From the NCBI GenBank assembly GCA_030448025.1, contig JAUJNQ010000005.1:1-47596 (forward strand): a DNA stretch of 47,596 bases. Direction: 5' to 3'. Position 1 is the stretch's first letter, and each line of letters starts with the position of its first letter. The notes under the pieces are model-generated. The model saw only the letters and a list, made by a program, of their open reading frames with translations, did not search any database and was not told the DNA's origin. Positions 1,279-46,882 of this stretch are shown here, one piece after another. This DNA is from Acidimicrobiales bacterium (GTDB taxonomy: Bacteria > Actinomycetota > Acidimicrobiia > Acidimicrobiales > GCA-2861595). The translations under genes were made by a program, and so were the position numbers.

Positions 1279-2187
1279 ATGCGGGCCATGGCCGCGTTGG
1301 ACCGAGTCGTCGAGAAGCTGGCTTCCAAGCAGGCCGGCGCCTTCTGCGGGCGCCAGGCGATGGCGGGCGGCGCCGGCGCCCAGGCGAGGTACCGGCGGGT
1401 GCGCTCGGGCGCCTGGGTGCGCCTCACGCCGCCCAAGACCTATCGCCTCGCCGCCTTCCCACCCACTTGGGAGCAGCGGCTGTGGGCGGCGTGGCTGTGG
1501 GCCGGTGAGGGCGCCGCCATCTCGCACCGGTCGGCGGCGGCGCTGCTCGGGCTGGAGCACTTCGGGCCAGGACCGGTGGAGCTCAGCGCGCCGCCCGGCG
1601 GTCACCACCGCTGTGCTGGCGTGCGCGTCCACGAATCGGAGCTGGCGCCAGGTGAGACCCGCCGGGTGTCGGGCCTGGTGGTGACCGGGCCTGAGCGCAC
1701 CCTGATCGACGTCGCCGGGCGTCGGGGGGTGTCGGTCGAGGTGGTCGACGACGCCATGGAGAGCGCCTTTGGCCTCGGCCTGACCACACCGCAGCGCCTG
1801 CAGGCCGTTCTGGACGGGCGGCGAGGCTCGGGCGTGCTGCGCCGGCTTCTCGCCGCCCGGCCGCCGGGCCGGCCTCGGGGCAGCGCCCTCGAGGGCCGGT
1901 GGCTGCGCCTGGTGAGGAGCGCCGGGGTACCCGAGCCGGCGGGCCAGCTCGAGGTCCGAGCGGGCAGCGAGCGCTACTTCCTCGACTTCGCCTTCCCGCA
2001 CCGCCGGCTGGCGGTGGAGCTCGACGGCTTTGCCAAGCTCTCCACAAAGGTGGCCAAGCAGGACCTCCTCACCCGTGACACCAACTTGGGCCTGGCCGGC
2101 TGGACGGTCCTGCACTTCACCTGGGACGACGTCAACCTCCGCCCGCAGTGGGTGCTGGACTCCCTGCGCACCGCACTGGCGTCATGA
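1279..2187 (+). CDS. AbiEi-like winged-helix / DUF559 (Vsr-like) protein
   Basis: A 302-residue protein. Roughly residues 1-130 look like the winged-helix and AbiEi antitoxin region found in type IV toxin-antitoxin proteins, including the motif ISHRSAAALLGL (about 79-90) and TGPERTLIDVAG (about 137-148). Roughly residues 195-302 look like DUF559, a Vsr-like PD-(D/E)xK fold: FLDFAFPHRRLAVELDG (about 236-252), a lysine in the following helix and a C-terminal WTVLHFTWDDV strand. No AbiEii nucleotidyltransferase partner follows, so it may be a solitary protein, as is common in actinobacteria. ATG at 1279 and ATG at 1288 are both possible starts. A role in defence is inferred from family and neighbours. 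Confidence 0.75.
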   Translation: MRAMAALDRVVEKLASKQAGAFCGRQAMAGGAGAQARYRRVRSGAWVRLTPPKTYRLAAFPPTWEQRLWAAWLWAGEGAAISHRSAAALLGLEHFGPGPVELSAPPGGHHRCAGVRVHESELAPGETRRVSGLVVTGPERTLIDVAGRRGVSVEVVDDAMESAFGLGLTTPQRLQAVLDGRRGSGVLRRLLAARPPGRPRGSALEGRWLRLVRSAGVPEPAGQLEVRAGSERYFLDFAFPHRRLAVELDGFAKLSTKVAKQDLLTRDTNLGLAGWTVLHFTWDDVNLRPQWVLDSLRTALAS

Positions 2188-25097: not shown

Positions 25098-25463
25098 TCA
25101 GGGGGCGGCCTCGATCAGGGAGGCCACGTCGTCGCGGGTGAGGATGCCTCCTATGGGCCCAGCGGGATTGAGAGCCAGCCCGGCGCAGTCCCCCGCCAGC
25201 ACCAGCTCGAACACCACCGTCGCCGATTCGAGTCGAGGGTCGAAGGCGGCGGGGAAGGCGGTCCGCATGGCGCCCACGTCGGTGAAGGCGGGCACGTAGG
25301 CCTCGTCGTCCTCTCCGATGGCCAGCACCAGCTCCTCTCCCTCGACGGCTAGCACCAGCTCGGCTTGGCGCAACGTCTCGAAGAGGGCCCGGCGGGTGAA
25401 CTGGTTGTCGCGCGCCGCCACCGCCTCGATGGCAGCCACCAGCTCGATGTTGCCGACGGTCAC
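25098..25463 (-). CDS. SseB-domain protein
   Basis: A 121-residue soluble protein resembling the SseB N-terminal domain: a helical start (NIELVAAIEAVAARDNQFTRRALFETL), then the strands ELVLAVEGEELVLAIGEDDEAYVPAFTDVGAM and a final ALNPAGPIGGILTRDDVASLI. Function is unknown in most bacteria. Start GTG 25463 follows a 49-base hairpin separating it from leuS; its last codons end 2 bases from the PAC2 stop. It may be read through from leuS if the hairpin is not a terminator. Confidence 0.7.
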   Translation of the reverse strand: MTVGNIELVAAIEAVAARDNQFTRRALFETLRQAELVLAVEGEELVLAIGEDDEAYVPAFTDVGAMRTAFPAAFDPRLESATVVFELVLAGDCAGLALNPAGPIGGILTRDDVASLIEAAP

Positions 25464-25469
25464 CGGGCA

Positions 25470-25518
25470 CGTCTGGAGGACATAGCCGGCGGAAACCGCC
25501 GGTCATGTCCTCCAGACG
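25470..25518 (-). other. Large perfect hairpin between leuS and the SseB gene
   Basis: CGTCTGGAGGACAT (25470-25483) pairs perfectly with 25505-25518. Inside it, CCGGCGG-AAA-CCGCCGG forms a second stem. The result is a 49-base structure of 14 plus 7 base pairs with small internal mismatches. No T tract follows on either strand, so it is not a standard terminator. It contains a good Shine-Dalgarno plus ATG (GGAGGACATG), buried in the stem. It resembles a small mobile palindromic repeat or an RNA control element. Confidence 0.7.
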
Positions 25519-25533
25519 CGAGATGGCGGGAGG

Positions 25534-27945
<2,412 letters not shown>

Positions 27946-43519: not shown

Positions 43520-46500
43520 CTACCTGAAGTCCCTCGACTTGGTGCCCATGGCCAGGTCCAGAGCTTCGATGCGCTCGGCCACCACGTTGACCACCCCCTC
43601 GGCTCGCTCCAGGCGGCCCCGTATGAGGAGGGCCGGAGCCGAGCGGGCCACCCGGCGGTAACGGGCCCAAACGCCCCGCGAGCAGATCACGTTCACCAGG
43701 CCGGTCTCGTCCTCCAGGTTGACGAAGGTGGTGCCCTCGGCCGTAGCCGGGCGCTGGCGGTGGGTGACGACCCCGCCAACCAGGACCCGGGAGCCGGGTT
43801 CGGTGTGGGCCAGGTCCGCCGACGTCACCACGCCCAGCTCCTCGAGGTGGGGCCGGACGAACTCGGTGGGCGACGAGGTGGGCGACAGGCCGGTGGCCCA
43901 GAAGTCCGCAGCCGCCTCCTCCACCGGTGCCATGCCCGGGAGGGTGGGGGCATGGGCTCCCGTCACCACGCCACTGAGTCGCTCGGGCCGGGACTGGCTG
44001 ACGGCGCCGGCGGTCCACAGAGCCCGGCGTCGATCGAGGTCGAAGCAACCGAAGGCGCCGGCCGTGGCCAGGGCCTCCACCTGGGGCTGGGTGAGCCCGC
44101 AGCGGCGCACCACGTCCTCCATGTCGGCATAGGGGCGACCGACGGCGATGCGCTGATCCACGAGGCGCCGGGCTACGTCGTCGCCGATGGTGCGCACACA
44201 CCCCAGCCCGAGCCGCACTGCCGGCTCCCGTCCCCCCCTTCTGGTGGCGGAATATCGCCCTCTGGCGTGCGATTCCGCCACCAGAACGGGCTCGAGCAGA
44301 ACGGGTTCGAGGGCGGCCTTGGCCGCGCTGGCGTTGACGTCGGGGCCCCTCACCACCACGCCGTGGCGACGGGCGTCGGCCACCAGCGTGTGGGGCGACC
44401 AGAAGCCCATGGGCTGGGCGTTCAGCAGCGCGGCGCAGAACGCCGCCGGGTAGTGGTGCTTGAGCCAGGCGCTGGCGTAGACGAGGTAGGCGAAGCTCAC
44501 CGAGTGGCTCTCGGGGAAGCCGAAGTTGGCGAAGGCCACGAGCTTGTCCCAGATGGCGTCGGCCACCTCACCGGTGATGCCCCGCTCGGCCATGCCGTCA
44601 TAGAGCCGGCCCCGCAGCGCCTCCATGCGGGCCTGGCTGCGCTTGGAGCCCATGGCCTGGCGCAGCTGGTCGGCGTCGGCGGGGCTGAAGCCGGCCACGT
44701 CGATGGCCATCTGCATGAGCTGCTCCTGGAACAGGGGCACGCCGAGGGTCTTGGCCAGGCTGCGCTCCAGCAGGGGGTGCAAGTAGGTGACGGGCTCGTC
44801 TCCCTTGCGGCGGCGGATGTAGGGGTGCACCGAGCCGCCCTGGATGGGCCCGGGGCGGATGAGGGCCACCTCCACCACCAGGTCGTAGAAGCACCGGGGC
44901 CGCAGGCGGGGCAGGGTGGCCATCTGGGCCCGGCTCTCCACCTGGAACAGGCCCACCGAGTCGGCCCGGCACAGGTCGTCGTAGACCTCGTCCTCCTGGG
45001 CCAGGGTGGCCAGGTCGACCTCCACGCCGTGGTGCTCGGCGATCAGGTCCACGGCCATGTGGACGGCCGAGAGCATGCCCAGGCCCAGCAGGTCGAACTT
45101 GACCAGGCCCACCGCGGCGCAGTCGTCCTTGTCCCACTGCAGCACCGTGCGACCCGCCATGCGGCCCCACTCCACCGGGCACACCTCGGTGACGGGGCGG
45201 TCGCAGATCACCATGCCGCCGGAGTGGATGCCGAGGTGGCGGGGGAAGCCCTGCACCTGATGGGCAAGGTCCATGACAGGCTGGGGGATGTCGTGGTCGG
45301 GTCGGCCATCGGGGCCGACCGAAGACGCCGTGTGGCTGAGCGGTCCCCAGGCATCGACCTGCTTGGACCATGCGTCCTGCTGGCCCGGTGAGTGGCCAAG
45401 GGCCTTGGCCATGTCCCTGATGGCGGAGCGGGGCCGGTAGGTGATGATGTTGGCCACTTGGGCGGCCCGGTCCCGGCCGTAGCGCTCGTAGACGTACTGG
45501 ATGGCCTCCTCCCGGCGGTCGGACTCGATGTCGAGGTCGATGTCGGGGGGGCCGTCCCGCTCGGGTGAGAGGAAGCGCTCGAACAGCAGCCCGAGGGCCA
45601 CGGCGTCGGCGTTGGTGATGCCGAGGGCGTAGCAGGTGGCGGAGTTGGCGGCCGAGCCCCGGCCCTGGCAGTAGATGTCGGACCGGCGGCAGAACTCGAC
45701 GATGTCCCAGACGATCAGGAAGTAGCCGGCGAAGCCCAGGTGCTCGATGACGTCGAGCTCGTGGGCGATCTGGGCATAGGCGCCGTTCACCCGCTCGCCC
45801 TGGGGGGGGCCGTAGCGCTTCTCGGCGCCTTCGCTGGTGAGGTGGCGGAGCCAGGTCATCTCGGTGTGACCGGGGGGCACGGGCCAGTCGGGCAGGCGGG
45901 GCGCCACCAGCGACAGGTCGAAGGCGCACTGTCGTGCGATGTCGGCGGCCTGTTGGACGACGCCGGGATAGCGGGCGAAGCGCGCCGCCATCTCCCGGCC
46001 GCTGCGCAGGTGGGCCGAGGCGGCCGGGGGGAGCCAGCCGTCGATCTCGTCGAGGGAGCGCCGGGCCCGTACGGCTGCCAGGGCGGTGGCCAGGGGCCGA
46101 CGGGCGGGGGTGGCGTAGTGCACGTTGTTGGTGGCCACGAGCTGGGTGTGGGCGCTGGTGGCCAGTTGGGCGAGGGCGTCGTTGCGGGCCGAGTCGACGG
46201 GGTCGCCGTGGTCCCACAGCTCCACGGCCACGTTGTCCCGCCCGAAGCAGGCGCTGAGCTCGCCCAGGCGGCGGGCGGCGGCCTGGGGGCCGTGGTCCAC
46301 GAGGGCCTTGGGCACGGTCCCCTTGCGGCACCCGGTGAGGACCAGCCAGTGGCCGCCGTGGGCTTCGGCCAGGGCCGACAGGTCGAACTGCGGCCGACCC
46401 TTCTCCTGGCCGTGGAGCTGGCCCTCACTGATGGCCCGGCACAGGCGGGCGTAGCCGTCGGGGTCGCGGGCGATGACCACCAGGTGGGTGCCCTCGGGAT

Positions 46501-46882
46501 CGGCGACGCCGTTCTGGGGCTTGGTGAGGCCCAGGCTCAGCTCGGCCCCGAAGACGGTGGGCAGGTGGGCCGTGTCGGCGGCCGCGGCGAAGCGGACGGC
46601 ACCGTACATGCCGTCGTGGTCGGTGAGGGCCAGGGCTCCCAGGCCGAGGCGGGCTGCCTCTTGGACCAGCTCCTCGGGGTGGGAGGCCCCGTCCAGGAAG
46701 CTGAAGTTGGAGTGGCAGTGCAGCTCGGCGTAGGGGACGGTCCCGGTGCTGGATGGAGGCTCGGCCGGCCAGGGTGATGATTGTTGCTGTTCGGCGAGGG
46801 CGAGCTTCGGGGGCCGCGGCCTTCCGTCCGAGAGCCGTCGCTCGAGCTCGGACCATGGGATCGGGGGGTTTCTCCAGCCCAT
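43520..46882 (-). CDS. dnaE2: Error-prone DNA polymerase DnaE2
   Basis: A 1120-residue C-family polymerase for SOS mutagenesis and lesion bypass with ImuA and ImuB. PHP domain at about 50-110 ([34 protein letters not shown]); palm catalytic aspartates in [18 protein letters not shown] (about 445); [65 protein letters not shown]-terminal OB fold ([17 protein letters not shown]). A clear LexA box precedes ATG 46882. Residues of about 850-890 contain an extra stretch made by a palindromic insertion and a tandem LEPVL repeat. Confidence 0.95.
44239..44286. repeat. Perfect 15-base inverted repeat inserted in frame in dnaE2
   Basis: TTCTGGTGGCGGAAT (44239-44253) is exactly the reverse complement of 44272-44286, with an 18-base loop. 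It lies in a region where DnaE2 homologues are short and variable, and adds the residues [19 protein letters not shown]. Next to it a 15-base unit, CAGAACGGG(C/T)TCGAG, is doubled. The features suggest a REP/MITE-like palindromic element tolerated in a coding sequence. Confidence 0.75.

Follow-up and report, generated by a model that had tools for sequence, protein, structure and literature searches.

A dispersed REP-like palindrome beside leuS in an Acidimicrobiales genome and its candidate partner, an AbiEi-DUF559 nuclease gene

A 47,596-nt stretch of DNA from an Acidimicrobiales bacterium (assembly GCA_030448025.1, contig JAUJNQ010000005.1, positions 1 to 47,596; the whole stretch is called the window here) carries a 49-base hairpin between leuS and an SseB-domain gene. 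The question raised by this locus is whether the hairpin serves the genes beside it or is an element that arrived from elsewhere. From the dispersal of the hairpin, the empty orthologous sites, the pairing of hairpins with one type of gene, the trend of hairpin sequence with the clade of the encoded protein and an insertion that is in frame, we consider it likely that the hairpin is mobile, a non-autonomous palindrome resembling the repetitive extragenic palindromes (REPs), and that its partner is a gene for a putative AbiEi-DUF559 nuclease, not a REP-associated tyrosine transposase (RAYT). The partnership of hairpin and nuclease gene is well supported by these sequence comparisons, and we infer that the nuclease moves the hairpins.

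The hairpin, its copies and its empty sites

The hairpin and its two neighbours are as follows.

25470..25518 (core 25472-25516, 45 bp), no strand: family-1 palindromic element, between leuS and the SseB-domain gene
25534..27945, minus strand: leuS (leucyl-tRNA synthetase; PF13603, PF00133), the hairpin's upstream neighbour
25098..25463, minus strand: SseB-domain gene (PF07179; GTG start at 25463), the hairpin's downstream neighbour

An earlier reading made from the letters alone (the sequence-only reading) had placed the hairpin correctly and described its 14-bp outer stem; the fold has a single 1x1 mismatch, an inner stem of 8 bp instead of the 7 bp reported, and a loop of 3 nt. The minimum free energy is -48.5 kcal/mol over 71 nt (z -7.8; 0 of 200 shuffles equally good) and -43.4 for the isolated 49-mer. 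The hairpin was also rightly said to exceed other structures of the window, in which only two palindromes score 11 or more, the hairpin itself (18.0) and a palindrome within dnaE2 (13.5); when the window was simulated 20 times with a first-order Markov model, the best palindrome scored 13.0. By reading, there is no T tract on either side, as had been noted, so that the hairpin does not have the make-up of an intrinsic terminator. An Rfam scan gave only matches far below threshold, the best reaching 27.5 bits where 168 was the cut-off.

A BLAST search of the organism's own genome (G000; 2.70 Mb, 13 contigs) with the hairpin returned ten copies dispersed over five contigs, and this genome-wide count confirms the suggestion that the hairpin belongs to a family of small palindromic elements. 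The family-1 element is a palindrome of fixed length, 45 bp, made up of TCTGGAGGACAT, 21 nt and ATGTCCTCCAGA, and GGAGGACAT is the arm common to its copies. Nine of the ten copies have perfect outer arms, CTGGAGGACAT and ATGTCCTCCAG, with a span of 43 bp that does not vary (0 with the reversed pattern as a control), the tenth having an extra base inserted in one arm. In a search for half-arms, exact TCTGGAGGACAT occurred 20 times in this genome, 18 of them inside family-1 elements. Among 397 genomes, the own included, at least six gave a family-1 BLAST hit (G000, G002, G012, G018, G029 and G071), a lower bound, since no genome had more than two candidates scored. When seven genomes were counted with the family-1 pattern at up to three mismatches, G012 had 99 occurrences, G002 22, G000 9, G018 2, G029 1, and G001 and G071 0; the reversed pattern gave 0 in each of the seven. 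A copy at L011:2043-2087 lies, by eye, where a DHH-type gene meets a truB-like gene.

The inner arms of family 1 vary from copy to copy and covary with each other. In an alignment of 49 copies (the 41 best of the 99 from G012, three of nine from G000, two of 22 from G002, both from G018 and the one from G029) covariation was 0.217, a value reached by 0 of 500 shuffles, versus 0.107 for shuffles, and a slid alignment gave about 0.10 at most.

The flanks of 20 copies were searched for in other genomes and seven were aligned, six of them with empty orthologous sites; the seventh, the dnaE2 site, is occupied in relatives. In G001, which is of the same genus, the gap between leuS and sseB measures 23 nt and has no hairpin. 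Empty sites were likewise read for C9:54671 (in G001 and G005), C10:35376 and C7:668857 (both in G001), C4:693242 (in G003) and the family-3 copy C12:162244 (in G001); in G003 the site of C9:54671 is taken up by another stretch of about the same length, in which no palindrome was scored. A stop triplet lies within 16 nt of 20 of the 38 hairpin ends of the G071 copies, against a control mean of 4.6 and a maximum of 9; 19 of the 20 fetched copies were counted, one at a contig end having been dropped. By eye it seemed likely that the elements had entered the loop of a terminator stem already in place; this was rejected, since the flanks of one copy did not pair better with each other than with those of another copy (permutation p of 0.95, 0.30, 0.85, 0.92, 0.61, 0.06 and 0.45 in seven sets).

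The hidden Shine-Dalgarno and ATG that had been proposed for the hairpin do exist, as GGAGGACATG on its minus strand, with GGAGG 2 nt from the ATG. This ATG, at 25506, opens a frame of 226 amino acids that is without a Pfam match and out of frame with the SseB gene. Control of SseB, which had been offered as one possible role, is unsupported because the motif recurs elsewhere as the element's arm and the hairpin is absent from the same-genus leuS-sseB gap.

AbiEi-DUF559 genes and their palindromes

Two family-1 copies in the own genome, C10:322862 and C10:323861, lie about 1 kb apart and flank a gene of 304 amino acids with AbiEi_4 and DUF559 domains, and in G002 the sole PF04480 hit is flanked by family-1 copies in like manner. 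Three families of the own genome have one close pair each among the matches listed, and each pair flanks a DUF559 gene. By sequence, three DUF559 genes of this genome thus each accompany a family of hairpins, and the two palindromes of the window are members of such families. The second of them and its host gene, together with a DUF559 gene that lies in the window, are listed here.

44239..44286, no strand: family-3 palindromic element, inside dnaE2, whose reading frame stays open
43520..46882, minus strand: DNA polymerase III alpha-type gene (dnaE2; PF07733, PF17657, PF02811), host of the family-3 element
1279..2187, plus strand: AbiEi-DUF559 paralog, with no hairpin of its own detectable at the score used

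The sequence-only reading had suggested that the two palindromes might share one family. They are not of the same family, and the kinship that holds is that of sister families, each with a pair around a DUF559 gene. A search of the own genome with the dnaE2 palindrome found itself, C4:518899, C12:162244 and C9:161266 (E 0.04); the pair of its family at C9:120842 and C9:121867 (E 0.02 and 8e-4), both of which fold as hairpins, flanks the DUF559 gene at C9:121646. The hairpin of the DUF559 gene at C7:65933 occurs at ten places in the own genome. The paralog at 1279-2187 may be an orphan or an older relative of the partner genes. The own genome also has hairpins of other sequences at L109:2217-2265, L110:980-1030 and L099:2864-2914, two of them near the DUF559 hits C12:125223 and C12:181576 and one alone, which are probably a fourth and a fifth family.

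Palindromes are concentrated at DUF559 genes in other genomes as well. At several of 30 fetched DUF559 loci, one end or both bear a near-perfect palindrome whose sequence is a different one; counted in fixed zones, with gene ends partly estimated, 19 palindromes lie near the genes (0.99 per kb) versus 6 elsewhere (0.08 per kb), and 15 of the 30 loci have at least one. A larger set consisted of 80 named loci, the best 80 of 176 relatives, from Acidimicrobiia, Solirubrobacterales, other Actinomycetota, Acidobacteria, myxobacteria/deltaproteobacteria and Gemmatimonadetes. Here 31 palindromes fell in the 154 bins of 200 bp near the gene versus 7 in 3,664 more distant bins, an enrichment of about 100-fold within 200 bp of DUF559 genes; the counts are not all independent because the set includes near-duplicates (L116/L064, L165/L070 and L157/L188). 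Twenty of the 31 near palindromes are upstream and 11 downstream, one overlapping the end of the gene match. A palindrome was found within 250 bp in 25 of the 80 loci, and on both sides in five. In L107, L070 and L072 the DUF559 frame extends at its 3' end into the hairpin that lies downstream, which gives some of the proteins a hairpin-encoded C-terminal tail.

Twelve hairpins chosen solely for flanking a DUF559 gene were searched jointly in 13 genomes, with up to forty candidates scored in each, and among the matches listed each genome matched a single hairpin segment, its own; G018 and G071 have one such segment in common. Further places appeared among the matches listed in at least eight of the 13 genomes (G003, G004, G071, G018, G012, G397, G400 and G401), and G398, G399 and G404 had 9, 10 and 6 matches, above the number expected from the hairpins of their own gene.

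The sequence of the hairpin tends to follow the clade of the protein. Of 25 gene pairs whose proteins had a similarity of at least 0.6, 56% had a hairpin in common (score of 14 or more), as did 11% of 19 pairs at 0.5-0.6 and at most 1% below that, and 0 of 11 pairs of paralogs from one genome had a hairpin in common. The Mantel correlation over the 43 hairpin-bearing genes of this analysis, in which the dnaE2 copy was used in place of the L107 hairpin, was modest (Spearman 0.152, p 0.004). Genes of the clade to which the window hairpin belongs adjoin an ilvC-like gene in G012, G018, G071 and G004 and a sufC-like gene in G000, and lie elsewhere in G002 (neighbours named by eye). As the neighbours differ among members of the clade, the unit itself has moved or been acquired separately.

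The partner gene is predicted to encode an AbiEi-like region fused to a DUF559 nuclease domain of the Vsr/I-Bth0305I (EDxHD) type. The AbiEi-DUF559 proteins of G018 and G071 are 309 and 307 amino acids long. In an AlphaFold model of the G018 protein (predicted local distance difference test score 87), residues 1-196 match AbiEi (6y8q, Z 13.0) and residues 202-308 match NGO0050 (Z 12.9), I-Bth0305I (Z 12.3) and Vsr (1cw0, Z 10.6). PF04480 was above cut-off in all seven DUF559 proteins scanned and AbiEi_4 in one of them, in addition to the G000 protein; the flanked proteins match PF04480 and some also PF13338. AbiEi models of PADLOC matched five of five proteins scanned. Conserved E, D and H residues are seen in an alignment (A1) of these putative nucleases. 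None of the four flanked proteins that were scanned received a name from NCBIfam. A Y1 match was absent from the Pfam scan of the flanked proteins, a scan that did not extend to Y1 genes elsewhere in the genomes.

Certain sites carry hairpins in more than one genome. The same dnaE2 loop contains a hairpin, with the frame open, in six of 30 dnaE2 loci (G000, G001, G003, G004, G005 and G010), five found by scan and that of G001 by eye and fold. Those of G000, G001 and G003 are all different in type; those of G004, G005 and G010 have a common outer arm near GAGNAAATA or GAGGCAATA and differ inside. In G000, G003 and G004 the dnaE2 hairpin resembles a DUF559-linked hairpin of the same genome. A hairpin stands behind leuS in three of 30 loci (G000, G003 and G014), all of different sequence, and in none of the other 27; the one in G003 resembles that genome's own DUF559-linked family, and the one in G014 (L267:2066-2125) is near-perfect, 60 nt long and about 40 nt behind the leuS stop, and is unassigned to a DUF559 gene. 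Had the hairpin been single-copy with a conserved position, a local role would have been favoured; two other genomes do have a hairpin behind leuS, but the sequences differ and the element is multi-copy. One site with different hairpins may be a preferred target, or may hold old elements whose sequence has been replaced.

A possible mechanism would have the AbiEi-like region recognise the conserved outer arms and the Vsr/EDxHD-type domain cut at or near the hairpin, perhaps when it is extruded on single-stranded or supercoiled DNA. The same domain could also cut a target site, one that often directly follows a stop codon, and the repair or replication machinery of the host could then copy the hairpin into the break. 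One arm might be copied from the other, which would explain inner arms that change fast yet stay complementary. We put at even chances the broader proposal that these elements are a separate class of bacterial mobile DNA, in which a dedicated nuclease of the AbiEi-Vsr type, with no transposase, binds, cuts and copies palindromes some 45-58 bp long, a class which occurs in Actinomycetota and in myxobacterial and deltaproteobacterial metagenome-assembled genomes (MAGs), and in which fast switching of hairpins leads to different hairpins per lineage at one site, such as the dnaE2 loop or the 3' end of leuS.

Weighing the alternatives

Several points weigh against a mobile palindrome with a nuclease partner. 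Movement of the hairpins was not observed, and a target-site duplication was not readable in the pairwise empty-site comparisons. All 41 G012 rows of the covariation alignment have perfect outer arms, and as these rows are the 41 best of 99, the invariance of the outer arms is partly due to row choice. Of the 25 closest protein pairs, 44% have no common hairpin at the score used. No hairpin was found in the zone, at that score, in 55 of the 80 named loci and 15 of the 30 PF04480 loci; PF04480 genes occur in 12 of 12 genomes searched, including those where no hairpin was seen beside them, and the hairpin is seemingly single-copy in two of the 13 genomes searched jointly (G402 and G403, with 3 and 2 matches, the gene's own). 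All 80 named loci derive from MAG records. The flanked DUF559 genes of L047, L057 and L060 look frameshifted, as expected of decaying mobile units.

The alternative that survives best, unlikely as we judge it, is that another enzyme, such as a Y1/HUH transposase, moves the palindromes and that the DUF559 gene is mere cargo between two copies. The DUF559 gene could indeed be a passenger, its action being deduced, and REPs are credited to RAYTs (PMC2817692). However, the hairpins tend to vary in sequence along with the clade of the DUF559 protein, none of the 11 paralog pairs from one genome had a hairpin in common, and the one close pair listed for each of the three families in the own genome flanks a DUF559 gene.

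We give a smaller chance to the hairpins being operators or self-marks, by which the AbiEi part would regulate its own gene or, as part of a defence system, protect the DNA of the host. AbiEi antitoxins bind to inverted repeats in the promoters of their own genes. The PADLOC matches and the 20 upstream palindromes of 31 would fit such a role, while 11 lie downstream, the hairpins are found at ten places in G000 and 99 in G012, and they occur inside dnaE2 and are missing at orthologous sites; regulatory binding would in any case be compatible with mobility. Least probable is a local role in the leuS-SseB transcript, as an attenuator or a switch of translation: the structure is very stable and lies between co-directional genes, any stem of this kind may affect the transcript, and G003 and G014 also have hairpins behind leuS, of other sequence, but the same sequence stands at nine further sites, neither the same-genus gap nor 27 of 30 leuS loci have a hairpin, and the hidden ATG, out of frame with SseB, has its GGAGG only 2 nt away.

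Relationship to known systems

If the proposed partnership is true, many DUF559 genes that are now uncharacterised would gain a function, a testable hairpin-directed nuclease reaction would be defined, and palindromes lying in frame within genes, as in dnaE2, would be accounted for. By similar reasoning a partner might be found for other orphan palindromic repeats that lack one, for example those of the CGTC class.

Like miniature inverted-repeat transposable elements (MITEs) and the Rickettsia palindromic elements, the hairpins are small non-autonomous palindromes that sometimes lie within genes, here dnaE2. They differ from both in that no target duplication is readable and that a nuclease gene carries the same palindromes. 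The partner protein is like I-Bth0305I and Vsr (EDxHD/PD-(D/E)XK) in the predicted fold of its catalytic domain (Z 12.3 and 10.6), and unlike them in having a fused AbiEi-like region and a gene flanked by dispersed palindromes. With AbiEi of the AbiE type IV toxin-antitoxin system it shares the predicted fold of the N-terminal 200 or so amino acids and the match to PADLOC models; AbiEi itself does not have the C-terminal nuclease domain. PMC12907096 deals with a Vsr-like DUF559 protein of Caulobacter in mismatch repair, and 'palindrom' and 'transpos' appear in it 0 times. Searches of an open-access library, which leaves subscription journals mostly, and bioRxiv preprints wholly, outside, listed no paper on a link between hairpins and DUF559 genes.

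The closest comparison is with REP/REPIN-RAYT systems (REPtrons). According to PMC3733652, REPs of the GTAG/CGTC class are 20-40 bp long and defined by having GTAG or CGTC at one end as an unpaired tag, the CGTC class is apparently without a dedicated transposase, and DnaE2 (named by Di Nocera et al.) and pseudouridine synthase genes are among the REP-carrying genes; REPs are attributed to RAYTs (PMC2817692). The hairpins are, like REPs, dispersed palindromic repeats in many copies (10 in G000, 99 in G012). They have no unpaired GTAG or CGTC tag, and are symmetric and mostly 45-58 bp versus 20-40 bp, and an AbiEi-DUF559 nuclease takes the place of the HUH tyrosine transposase as partner; because tag and enzyme both differ, membership in the REP/RAYT class fails. 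A link to CGTC REPs was considered, the window copy starting with CGTC, and rejected, as the CG before TCTGG is not kept in all copies. With the REPtron, which it would resemble in its working, the present system shares short dispersed palindromes, a gene flanked by copies, a trend that links gene and palindrome sequence, several independent families per genome, and sites behind genes. The pairing is strong without being general, with one palindrome or more at 25 of the 80 named loci and both sides flanked at five. In the literature searched, no palindrome-mobility system described so far includes either partner; on a stricter view the system may be a variation on the REPtron plan. A second, unrelated type of enzyme shows the sort of evidence known for RAYTs and REPs, namely flanking, matching sequence evolution and dispersal, and the pairing of hairpin and nuclease suggests an unfamiliar route for the spread of short bacterial repeats.
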